DNA of 64,000 nt. Source: Halapricum salinum. GTDB taxonomy: Archaea > Halobacteriota > Halobacteria > Halobacteriales > Haloarculaceae. The notes beneath the pieces were generated by a model that had not been told where the DNA came from, made no database searches, and was given only the letters and a program-made list of their open reading frames with translations. Below, in pieces: positions 4,313 to 57,778 of the stretch (positions are counted from its first letter, which is position 1; every line of letters starts with the position of its first letter). The translations under genes were made by a program, and so were the position numbers. The stretch covers positions 2,286,887 through 2,350,886 of the forward strand of contig NZ_CP031310.1 in assembly GCF_004799665.1 (NCBI RefSeq), in the 5' to 3' direction.

Positions 4313-4426
4313 ATGGACGAACCGGAGCCACATCCAGACGATCATCTGGACGACCTCGAAGACGGCGCAGGGTGTACCGAAATCTGGGAGACGCTGAGTG
4401 AGCAGCGCGAAGCCGGTGCGGACTGA
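4313..4426 (+). CDS. Small acidic protein of 37 residues
   Basis: The frame begins MDEPEPHPDDHLDDLEDGAG and continues CTEIWETLSEQREAGAD before TGA. It is very acidic, uses normal codons for this genome, and carries one Cys. It diverges from trmB with a shared 133-bp intergenic region and has a TATA-like box about 30 bases upstream, so it is probably leaderless. I recall similar short haloarchaeal proteins with the phrase DGAGCxEIWExLSE, but cannot confirm this here. No function is known. The last base of its TGA is the first base of the 82-bp palindromic element. Confidence 0.65.
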   Translation: MDEPEPHPDDHLDDLEDGAGCTEIWETLSEQREAGAD

Positions 4427-4507
4427 TAGTGATTACTGTAGCGATTTACCACTACGACCGCCCGACTCCGGGCGGTCGATGTGGAACAGACCGACAGTAA
4501 TCACTAT
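4426..4507. repeat. 82-bp palindromic element, copy A
   Basis: The element has a perfect 14-bp terminal inverted repeat (ATAGTGATTACTGT / ACAGTAATCACTAT), an inner stem CCAC...GTGG and a perfect 9-bp apical stem GACCGCCCG / CGGGCGGTC with a 4-base loop. Two 9-base internal loops (AGCGATTTA and AACAGACCG) and a TA/AT bulge are unpaired. A second copy of exactly the same length lies at 55052-55133, with the loops identical and three stem pairs changed in a compensatory way. It begins at the last base of a stop codon. The 137 bases that follow, to 4644, hold no other feature I can identify except the promoter region of the next gene. Confidence 0.85.
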
Positions 4508-4644
4508 GAGCGCCCCTCCGGTCTGGACTCGCGTCAACCCCACACGGTCTCTGCCGAGCGGCAGGCCCACGCGACAGCCACGAGCTGTTAGATATCGATC
4601 ACGTGGTCGACACACCTATTCTCTCGGCCGTGGTATAGGGCCTC

Positions 4645-54652: not shown

Positions 54653-54797
54653 AGCGAATCGTCCTTGCCGGCGATTTGACGTGCGCGCTTAAAACCCGTT
54701 TGGTTCCGGACCATCGCGGTGTTGCGGGGATTTCGCCGCCCTGGCTGTTTCGAGGGCCTTCGAAGTCCCTAAGTACAGTTGCGCCGAATCGACGTCT

Positions 54798-55052
54798 ATG
54801 AAGAACCTCATCGTCAACGGCGACCCCGGGAAGCTCCGCAAGGGCGCTGTCATCGAGTACGACGGTCAGGAGTACGTCTGTTTCTCGGTCAAGCGCCAGG
54901 GCGACTGGCACGGTCCCGACCGCCCGCAGCTGTGGTGTACGGTCGGTCAGGAGGACGAGCGCGAGACCTACGAGCGCCGTCAGTACATCCCGATGCACCT
55001 CGACACGCTCTCTGCGGACGCAGACGCCGTCACCGTCGTCGAGGCAGCCTGA
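54798..55052 (+). CDS. HAH_0734 family protein
   Basis: This 84-residue protein (MKNLIVNGDPGKLRKGAVIE, GQEYVCFSVKRQGDWHGPDR, ERRQYIPMHLDTLSADADAV) matches the small haloarchaeal HAH_0734 family from memory. The fold is beta-rich and the function is unknown. It diverges from the L44e operon across 145 bases. The last base of its TGA stop is the first base of palindromic copy B. Confidence 0.85.
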   Translation: MKNLIVNGDPGKLRKGAVIEYDGQEYVCFSVKRQGDWHGPDRPQLWCTVGQEDERETYERRQYIPMHLDTLSADADAVTVVEAA

Positions 55053-55133
55053 TAGTGATTATTGTAGCGATTTACCGGTACGACCGCCTGCAGTCGGGTA
55101 GTCGATCCGGAACAGACCGACAATAATCACTCT
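55052..55133. repeat. 82-bp palindromic element, copy B
   Basis: The element has the same length and fold as copy A (4426-4507). The 14-bp outer stem has one end mismatch (ATAGTGATTATTGT / ACAATAATCACTCT), the inner stem is CCGG / CCGG, and the apical stem GACCGCCTG / CGGGTAGTC has one mismatch and two pairs that are G-U in RNA. The two 9-base internal loops are identical to copy A. It starts at the last base of a stop codon and lies in the gap to the convergent DUF2298 gene. Confidence 0.85.
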
Positions 55134-55147
55134 GACTTCTCGCCTGC

Positions 55148-57778
55148 TTACTCGTCGAGTGCGCCCTGGTCGACGCGGTAGATCGTCACCAGCGGCCACT
55201 CCTTCTCGACCGAGACGACCGACAGACGATCGACCGTTATCGGTCGATACTCCGACCGTTCGTTCGGTCCGACGTAGATCAACTCCACGTCGTATTTCGC
55301 CAGCAATCGTCGCTGCTCGGCTGGCTCGCCAGTGAACATCGCCCGCACGTCTCTGAGCCGCTGCTCGTACACGTCAGGACCGCGGTAGGCCCGTTCCGGC
55401 AGCTTGCCCAGAACTGTCGGCACCCCAGTGAGACTCGCTGGCCCGTTGTACCAGCGGTACTGTGGGCCCGGATCGCTGAGCATGTTCGGCTGGCCCTCGA
55501 CCTCGCTGTCGAGCCAGTAGACTGCCGCCGCCTCCACGTTGTGATCACGCTCGACGAACGCCAGCGCGTCCAGCGTCGGATCGGCGATCCGCTCGGTATC
55601 GGTACTGAACGTATCCACCGGCTCTTCGGGTGTGTACGCCACGGCGATCCCGAACGAGCCGTACAGTCCCGCGCCGACGACGAGCAGCCCGACCGCCAGC
55701 GTCAGCCCCACGCGCTGGCTCTCGTCGATCACTGCTCGTCGTTCAGCAAGACGGTCGAGCGCGATCGTCGCGAGACTCCAGACGATCGCGAGAACGAGTA
55801 CGAATCCCGCGAGTGCCGACCACGCTGGAATCGCCGCGAGTGCGTCGATCGAGGGCGACCCGGCGATGTCGCCGGTCAGACCGAAGTGGACTGTGAGTGC
55901 GAGCATCCCATAGAGCGAGACGGCGACCATCAACGCGACTCCGAGGGCAGCGAGTGCCCGCCTGCCGAGGTCGCCCGAGAGATCGAGTGCGGATTGGCGT
56001 TCTTCCAGGAGTCGGACCAGTATCACGCCCGCAGCGACGCCCGCGAGGATCCACACCTGCATGTAGACCTTGAAGACGGTGTTGAACCGGCCGCCTGCGC
56101 CCGGCTCGACCACGTAGACGAACTCCACGAGGACGATCAGTCCGGTGAGCGCGACCAGCAGCACCGTCTCGAACCCCGGCTGTGGTGGGCTCTCACCGTC
56201 CTCGTCAGTGCGCCACGGGATCACCGTTCGACCGAACACGGAGACGGGGCCGGAGCGACGCAGCAGTATCCATCCGCCCAGGAGTATCGGGAGGAACAAC
56301 CCGACTGCGGGCACAGTGAGCACAGTCGTCACGGCCACGAGCGTCGTCGCTGCTACGGCGACGGTGACTGCTTCGGGCAGTCTGTAGTGACTGTGGCGAT
56401 AGAGGTACAGACCGTACAGCAGGAGGAACGCCCCGTGAGTGAGGAGCAACTCGGCGAGTGTGCTCCGGCCCGGGAACGCGCCCGGAGAGGTGTTCGCGCT
56501 GCTGGATTCGAACAGCCAGTACGGCGAGGACAGCACCCACGCGATCGCGAGGACGATCACGCCGACGACGACGGCGACGCCGAGTCGCTTGCCTTCGCGT
56601 TCGAGCCACGAGTCGATCGTTCGGTCGGTCGCTCTCTCTCCTCGAAGCAGTGCCAGTGGGTTCGTGGGACCGAGCGCCAGCGTCAACACGACCAGCCCGC
56701 CGACGGCCGGGAACGACCACGTGTTGACGACGGCGACGACGGCCCCCAGCGCCGGGAGGACACCGAACAGCGTGCCCAGTGTACGCGTTCGTGAGCGACC
56801 CGTCCCGGCGACGAACACCTGCAGGAGGATCGTCGCGACGACCAGCAGGAAGGGCGTACTCATCATGTGGGCGTGCAGATCGCCGTTGAGCCACGCAAAG
56901 AGGGGGAACTCGGTGATCGCGTTGTCGATGACGCGACTGGCCGACCAGTAGCTAAATTCCGAGATCGAACTCGCGATTCCCCGGTCGCGCGGGAGCGGGA
57001 AGAAGAGCCCCGCGACCCAGTTCCAGCCCGCCGCCAGATAGCCGAGCGGCGCACCGAGTAGGCCAAATTCTCCCGCGGCGTGTTCGAGGATGGCTCCGCC
57101 GAAGCGGAACGACGTCTGGAGGTTGCTGGCGACGCCGACGAAGAACGCGCTGGCGAGACCGGCGCGGTGGGCCGAGAAGCCGCGGTGGGCCGCGATCGAT
57201 CTCGCGAGACCGTAGGCCGCGGTGACGAGCATGGCGTAGTAGCCCGCCAGCGCGAGGTTGTATGCGAAGCGCCCTTCTGTGCCCGTGATCCGGGCGAGCA
57301 GCGACGCCAGCAGGTGGCCGCCGTAGTAGTAGCGGACGCTCTCGCCCGCGAACCATGCGTCCTCGGGCGGGACGGTGGTTCCGCGAAGCGAGGACTGCAG
57401 CAGGCTCATGTCGAGGAACTTCTCGCCGGCGAGTGGCATCGCGGCGGGATCGACGGCTCGGACCGCGATGAGAAAGCAGAACGCCACACTGAACACCAGT
57501 GCGACGCGGACGTAGGCCGCGTGGTCGATGTCGTACCCGCGATACCACAGCGTTGCCGCGAGAGCGCCCAGAACGAGGAGGCCGACCCAGAGCGCGAGTG
57601 TGATCGAGACCCGACCGAGGAAGAAGACGACGAGCCAGACGAGCGCGAGTGCGAGCGGGAGGGCGACCCCGGCTCCCAGGTCGTCGAGGTCCGGAAGCAG
57701 CGCGTGGGCGAGTGGCATCCCGACGTAGAGCAGCACCAGGTACGTAAGCAGCCAGAGGGCCACCAGCCCGTATTCCAT
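55148..57778 (-). CDS. DUF2298 multi-pass membrane protein
   Basis: This 876-residue protein has many transmembrane helices and the DUF2298 (Chlor_Arch_YYY) hallmark near residues 115-160: EKFLDMSLLQSSLRGTTVPP followed by DAWFAGESVRYYYGGHLLAS. The C-terminal soluble part contains VYWLDSEVEGQPNMLSDPG and LLAKYDVELIYVGPNERS. Members of the family are predicted membrane glycosyltransferase-like enzymes of unproven function. The gene is convergent with the HAH_0734 gene. Confidence 0.85.
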   Translation of the reverse strand: MEYGLVALWLLTYLVLLYVGMPLAHALLPDLDDLGAGVALPLALALVWLVVFFLGRVSITLALWVGLLVLGALAATLWYRGYDIDHAAYVRVALVFSVAFCFLIAVRAVDPAAMPLAGEKFLDMSLLQSSLRGTTVPPEDAWFAGESVRYYYGGHLLASLLARITGTEGRFAYNLALAGYYAMLVTAAYGLARSIAAHRGFSAHRAGLASAFFVGVASNLQTSFRFGGAILEHAAGEFGLLGAPLGYLAAGWNWVAGLFFPLPRDRGIASSISEFSYWSASRVIDNAITEFPLFAWLNGDLHAHMMSTPFLLVVATILLQVFVAGTGRSRTRTLGTLFGVLPALGAVVAVVNTWSFPAVGGLVVLTLALGPTNPLALLRGERATDRTIDSWLEREGKRLGVAVVVGVIVLAIAWVLSSPYWLFESSSANTSPGAFPGRSTLAELLLTHGAFLLLYGLYLYRHSHYRLPEAVTVAVAATTLVAVTTVLTVPAVGLFLPILLGGWILLRRSGPVSVFGRTVIPWRTDEDGESPPQPGFETVLLVALTGLIVLVEFVYVVEPGAGGRFNTVFKVYMQVWILAGVAAGVILVRLLEERQSALDLSGDLGRRALAALGVALMVAVSLYGMLALTVHFGLTGDIAGSPSIDALAAIPAWSALAGFVLVLAIVWSLATIALDRLAERRAVIDESQRVGLTLAVGLLVVGAGLYGSFGIAVAYTPEEPVDTFSTDTERIADPTLDALAFVERDHNVEAAAVYWLDSEVEGQPNMLSDPGPQYRWYNGPASLTGVPTVLGKLPERAYRGPDVYEQRLRDVRAMFTGEPAEQRRLLAKYDVELIYVGPNERSEYRPITVDRLSVVSVEKEWPLVTIYRVDQGALDE

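Follow-up and report, generated by a model that had tools for sequence, protein, structure and literature searches.

Why should a palindromic sequence begin exactly at the stop codon of a gene, and do so twice within one stretch of a haloarchaeal genome? In the 64-kb stretch of the Halapricum salinum genome that was analyzed (hereafter the window), a strong inverted repeat with arms at 55054-55084 and 55101-55131 follows the TGA stop codon of an HAH_0734-family gene. The preliminary description placed this copy at 55052-55133, took the A of the TGA as its first base, and offered two explanations for the register: insertion specificity for TGA, or co-option of the repeat to signal 3′ processing or termination. 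The palindrome and its contact with the stop codon hold, whereas the extent has to be corrected: the element is 80 bp long (55053-55132, plus strand) with no coding capacity, and the A at 55052 is part of the stop codon and of the duplicated target. TGA stands on both sides of the element as a 3-bp target-site duplication. A covariance model scan of the window found two copies only, this one and copy A, where the same TGA register recurs at the end of a conserved 37-aa open reading frame (ORF). The placement of the present copy between convergent genes was also borne out (Table 1). We regard the feature as very probably a nonautonomous, MITE-like 80-bp transposon that has a safe site at the TGA stop codon.

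Table 1. Coordinates of the element, its parts and its neighbors in the window, with loci of other short families in the relative G030
Feature	Position	Strand	Basis
HAH_0734-family gene, 84 aa, native TGA stop	54798-55052	+	NF045545, PF23384; 80 orthologues without insert
Stop TGA, left half of 3-bp target-site duplication	55050-55052	+	
80-bp palindromic mobile element, whole	55053-55132	+	
Outer stem, 5′ arm (terminal inverted repeat)	55053-55067	+	
Internal loop, 5′ side CGATTTA	55068-55074	+	Own-genome and class-wide alignments
Middle 4-bp stem, 5′ side	55075-55078	+	
Apical stem, 5′ side (conserved CGACCGC)	55081-55090	+	
Apical stem, 3′ side	55095-55104	+	
Middle 4-bp stem, 3′ side	55107-55110	+	
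Internal loop, 3′ side AACAGAC	55111-55117	+	Own-genome and class-wide alignments
Outer stem, 3′ arm; final base C here, A in most copies	55118-55132	+	
TGA, right half of target-site duplication	55133-55135	+	
Convergent gene, chlor_Arch_YYY domain protein	55148-57778	-	TIGR03662
ORF of 37 aa preceding copy A; its TGA stop (4424-4426) is the left target duplication	4313-4426	+	
Element copy A	4427-4506	+	blastn, covariance model
TGA, right target duplication of copy A	4507-4509	+	
Other short families in G030	L058 8608-8715; L063 878-986; L059 953-1059; L054 1159-1191		

Whether the stop codon predates the element was read from orthologous genes. None of 80 HAH_0734 orthologues from named genomes carries the insert, and in all of them the gene terminates at the same residue or close to it, with TAA in 33, TGA in 32 and TAG in 15. 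The closest orthologue, from Halapricum sp. CBA1109, ends in ...VVEAA-TGA exactly as the window gene does, and among named orthologues the closest to the flanking gene likewise come from Halapricum (89 and 86% identity). At the site of copy A the 37-aa ORF is 89% identical in four same-genus genomes, where it stops at TGA twice and at TAG twice, and the insert is present in none of the four. Because the orthologues lack the insert and end near the same codon, the stop codon is native and the second TGA its duplicate; the possibility, raised at the outset, that the gene normally continues past this point is not borne out. Joined-flank queries for 11 further stop-abutting copies against five same-genus genomes found the element in no readable orthologous junction, some alignments stopping short of the junction. 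The same stop was seen in several of them, as in CTG TGA TCGC (L022), TCA CTTCTC (L024) and TCA (L013 and L010), and some orthologues have TAA or TAG. The 37-aa ORF itself has matches in 32 of 39 relatives and none in Pfam or NCBIfam.

The element is dispersed well beyond the window. In the 3.45-Mb, single-contig genome of H. salinum, blastn gave 39 matches, five of which are the second strand of the same palindromic copies, leaving about 34 places. The relative G030 contains 130 exact matches to a 13-base core (67 forward and 63 reverse; reversed control, 0), and since many of its copies are near-identical, they represent a recent burst. Covariance-model matches occur in 20 of the 22 genera of the family (70 of 116 genomes) and in 36 of the 74 genera of the class (92 of 242 genomes). 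Cultivated strains are among the carriers, for example the tractable Haloferax mediterranei, whose plasmid pHME505 (NZ_CP039140.1) has 31 places of the TAGTAGCG subfamily. A perfect 3-bp direct repeat, mostly TGA or TCA, bounds 22 of the 30 own-genome copies examined at full length. Over all loci it bounds 69 of 90 copies (36 TGA, 31 TCA, 1 TAA and 1 TTA), a count that includes a few double readings (L020, L021 and L064), and a 4-bp repeat was found at 1 of the 90 only. Class-wide, 41 of 54 copies have a TSA duplication, 8 have TA only (7 of these from the TAGTAGCG subfamily), and 5 have neither; the 54 are 56 rows minus L392 (stray) and L407 (out of register), and the count excludes loci shorter than 3000 bases (L262, L268, L270 and L273). 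The flanks of the copies together form a palindromic target, GACTSAGTC (GAC-TSA-GTC), and the palindrome GGACTSAGTCC is recovered as well from copies away from stop codons alone.

How often the element lies at stop codons was counted with a codon-usage gene caller built for the analysis, after dropping L016 and L019, which overlap L015 and L012. In the own genome, 9 of 27 copies are exactly in a stop codon (7 TGA and 2 TAA), 15 are intergenic and 3 lie in called genes; the corresponding figures in G030 are 21 of 43, 17 and 5. About 40-55% of noncoding copies are exactly in a stop codon. A looser own-genome count with the element left in place gives 12 of 30, or 13 when copy A, whose ORF the caller missed, is added. 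The register described for two of two copies is therefore real, on a sample that was small against the roughly 34 copies in the genome, and the suspicion that copies elsewhere might be unrelated to stops is correct for the intergenic ones (15 of 27 and 17 of 43). In plasmid records annotated by others, four of nine TSA-type copies abut an annotated stop exactly (L437, L438, L440 and L441) and five do not (L436, L439, L442, L443 and L444); of the TA-type copies, 0 of 2 do.

Against a flat expectation of 15%, taken over all intergenic and stop TSA sites, these figures are an excess: 9 of 24 in the own genome (P = 0.005) and 21 of 38 in G030 (P = 7e-9). Such an excess would be expected if the element had been co-opted as a bidirectional signal for 3′ processing, mRNA stabilization or termination and were retained at stops for that reason, and it is in keeping with this idea that convergent genes flank 14 of 30 own copies and that the fold (below) is stable on both strands. 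However, the excess is accounted for by target motif and gap size. When each copy was compared with the other sites of its own gap, weighted by a motif learned from non-stop copies, 8.9 copies at stops were expected in the own genome and 9 observed (P = 0.63; 18 gaps); in G030, 17.9 were expected and 21 observed (P = 0.05; 33 gaps), so that the G030 excess is not wholly explained, a point against the MITE-like reading. Because motif and gap reproduce the observed counts almost entirely, the stop-codon register is mostly a product of target choice and of the places in which an insertion can be tolerated. Nor is the share at stops greater where copies are diverged, as in the own genome (9 of 24), than where they are near-identical, as in G030 (21 of 38), and orientation relative to the gene is mixed, with 5 same and 4 opposite in the own genome and 12 same and 9 opposite in G030. 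A scan for T-tract terminators of bacterial types, which leaves archaeal signals outside its scope, found no site in 54700-55500. Nor are copies held in place: two close species with 20 and 28 copies were found to share just 2 insertions, and turnover is therefore high. Of the two explanations first offered, insertion specificity is the one upheld, with a native stop that is duplicated, and co-option of the element for 3′ processing or termination we judge unlikely.

The MITE-like transposon would then behave as follows. An enzyme supplied in trans would make a 3-bp staggered cut at the palindromic GAC-TSA-GTC target, leaving TGA or TCA duplicated on either side. TGA stops preceded by C, often as GAC TGA (Asp-stop), fit this target, and an insertion at such a TGA regenerates the stop and leaves the protein unchanged. 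Insertions inside genes would be lost and those at stops would survive, so that copies would accumulate at stop codons and in the gaps separating convergent genes. We infer a DDE-type transposase as the mover in trans, and selection against gene damage would be what shapes the distribution. The coincidence of element and stop codon is thereby reduced to a simple rule in which the stop codon is the target, the duplication rebuilds it and the protein is unchanged.

The fold of the element comprises an outer stem of 15 bp, a 7 × 7 internal loop, a 4-bp stem, a 2 × 2 mismatch, a 10-bp apical stem and a tetraloop. The window copy folds far better than shuffled sequences on either strand, as RNA (z = -5.4 on the plus and -4.4 on the minus strand) and as DNA (z = -4.8 and -3.9). 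Among 28 own copies found by blastn, with L021 and L026 excluded for indels, pairing holds in 92.7% of pair cells, and two-sided changes occur at 13 of 29 pairs, compared with 7.2 in shuffled alignments (0 of 500 as high). A class-wide alignment of 55 sequences has zero gaps over 80 columns. Here 94.7% of cells form pairs and two-sided changes reach 26 of 29 pairs (0 of 500 shuffles), figures that lean upward in a set picked by a covariance model rewarding pairing; slid versions are 25-44% paired. RNAalifold independently recovers the same structure. The internal loop is unpaired and partly conserved (C..TTTACC / GG.A..GAC); within the apical stem, CGACCGC is conserved.

Strong covariation of this kind could point to a structured noncoding RNA, or RNA motif, under selection on one strand, and the preliminary description had proposed that the apical stem keeps pairing through G-U pairs that work as RNA on one strand only. 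The window copy does have two G-U pairs and one C.A in that stem. Among non-Watson-Crick transitions in the stems, G-U exceeds A.C in G030 (16 vs. 8) and at other loci (16 vs. 6), but not in the own genome (11 vs. 15), and the one-strand claim fails there. The 15-bp outer stem, which forms the terminal inverted repeats, is paired in 92.8% of cells in own copies and 96.7% class-wide, and paired change of inverted ends is expected of any two-ended transposon and is no proof of RNA function. Given further that the direct repeats at both ends show transposition, that orientation relative to genes is unbiased, that the class-wide set was chosen by the pairing-favoring model noted above, and that the sole match in an Rfam search was a tRNA, an RNA function of this sort is highly improbable.

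We searched for the enzyme that moves the element and found no autonomous partner in the complete genomes carrying it. Thirty PF01609 loci in eight genomes were scanned for their ends, none of which match the element (they carry other ends), and of 14 genomes searched for PF13358, 8 lack it; G000, G001, G003, G005, G030, G028 and G133 are among the eight, which include copy-rich genomes. In 12 genomes, the terminal repeat followed by other sequence identified just variant or decayed copies. Other leads were rejected. An ISH3-like element in G021 (L187) with an apparent TGA duplication and TAC ends proved, in a search of 146 genomes, to have conserved coding sequence at one supposed end, the real end being TAGTCTCAACTTCCCA. 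As a mobilizer we also discarded a rare DDE protein of 621 aa encoded in G000 (L188), for which plasmids yielded a single weak homologue, at 21.5% identity. Partial matches on Halobellus plasmids are not IS ends. Among viral contigs, 12 and 81 matched short end patterns and the model finds no element in 92 loci, so these matches were due to chance.

The missing autonomous copy leaves room for another route, in which a host-encoded enzyme recognizes the internal loop and mobilizes the element in the form of a folded single strand, as RAYTs do with REPINs. The exact 80-nt length and the fold conserved class-wide, with the paired changes just described, and an internal loop that remains unpaired would suit such a route. 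Y1/HUH transposition is not known to make a target duplication, nor are REPs, and the 3-bp duplication at most copies is a misfit with such a route; neither did 278 proteins encoded beside copies include a recurrent gene family. Movement as a single strand is accordingly improbable in our view, if marginally less so than co-option at stops. REPINs and REPs (PMC3116915, PMC3733652) share with the element an imperfect palindrome, extragenic position, many copies and long persistence without an autonomous copy. The element is set apart by its 3-bp TSA duplication and by the lack of a recurrent gene family beside its copies.

The element also resembles the MITEs of prokaryotic insertion sequences. 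It is short and noncoding, has terminal inverted repeats and a target-site duplication, and occurs in many dispersed copies, often intergenic, with no transposase gene. It differs in that the searches above found no parent IS and in that the whole class shares its two ends, its internal loop and its exact length, which is unlike a deletion derivative specific to one IS. MITEs usually arise anew from each IS, and it is unusual for one to keep the same length and inner sequence throughout a class, a point that weighs against this reading. IS1031-type IS5 elements and PIF/Harbinger transposons make a 3-bp TNA duplication at the center of a palindromic target, a rule that TSA within GACTSAGTC fits; the ends of the element, however, begin TA(G/C), and no such transposase was among the 30 PF01609 loci. 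The element does not fit an IS630/mariner MITE: it duplicates TSA as a rule rather than TA, and PF13358 (DDE_3) is absent from the seven genomes named above, although the TAGTAGCG subfamily does have a TA duplication. In its available portion, a review of prokaryotic MITEs makes no mention of stop codons (PMC10969869).

No description of the element was found in the open-licence literature, subscription journals being outside the scope of the search, and one paper there describes the only comparable haloarchaeal repeats (PMC3119063). These are the small mobile repeats (SMRs) of Haloquadratum walsbyi, which have inverted ends, no known transposon with the same ends and a mobilization called enigmatic in 2011; they are described as leaving the target unduplicated and as inserting into other mobile elements, with SMR-A about 110 bp long and one SMR-B family 80 bp (PMC3119063). 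Compared by description, the element resembles SMR-A and SMR-B in being a short haloarchaeal repeat with inverted ends and no known transposon sharing them, one SMR-B family even having its length, and differs in duplicating TSA. By this comparison the SMRs are the closest published group, though size and target duplication differ. The element adds to this small group of haloarchaeal mobile repeats a defined target, duplication length and fold, and these make the search for the enzyme testable. The element is ordinary in kind, that is, MITE-like, and unusual in its fixed class-wide architecture, its missing enzyme and its use of stop codons.

Some orthologous copies have changed after insertion. 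At L290 (G029), L277 (G064) and L278 (G059), positions 1501-1580, the same site and duplication are occupied and the element is inverted in one genome; in these three genomes of another genus the flanks are 89-92% identical and the element is identical at 73-74 of 80 positions, which indicates either a flip in place or an independent reinsertion. One shared insertion (L467 in G001 and L510 in G002) has outer arms from different subfamilies around an inner part that agrees, raising the question of concerted arm exchange. At L470 (G001) and L489 (G002), the left flank is 95% identical and the right flank is unrelated beyond the element, possibly the endpoint of a rearrangement or recombination.

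The inverted and arm-swapped orthologous copies suggest that arms could be renewed in concert in place. We tentatively entertain, as a further reading that is less likely than the MITE-like one and still rather doubtful, that the element is a mobile hairpin whose length is locked at 80 nt throughout the Halobacteria, a lineage of its own persisting without an autonomous copy. An enzyme, possibly encoded by the host, would move it by recognizing the stem and internal loop together with the target palindrome. The arms would be renewed as above, and the target palindrome fits Asp-TGA gene ends.

Other short elements of similar habit occur in these genomes. At L243 (about 1501-1662; G000:C1:1393909), a copy of the element is split by a 79-bp sibling with ends TAGTAACAATTG and CAATGGCTACTA and a TA duplication. 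G030 contains further short families that duplicate TNA, of about 108 bp (TACTGTCGGACACAAG) and 107 bp (TACGGTCGTGCGTA), and a 33-bp palindrome. In Halorussus amylolyticus (L131, 1816-1922), a 107-bp element with ends TAGTGATTGCTGTGA and a TGA duplication lies upstream of the HAH_0734 gene of that species.
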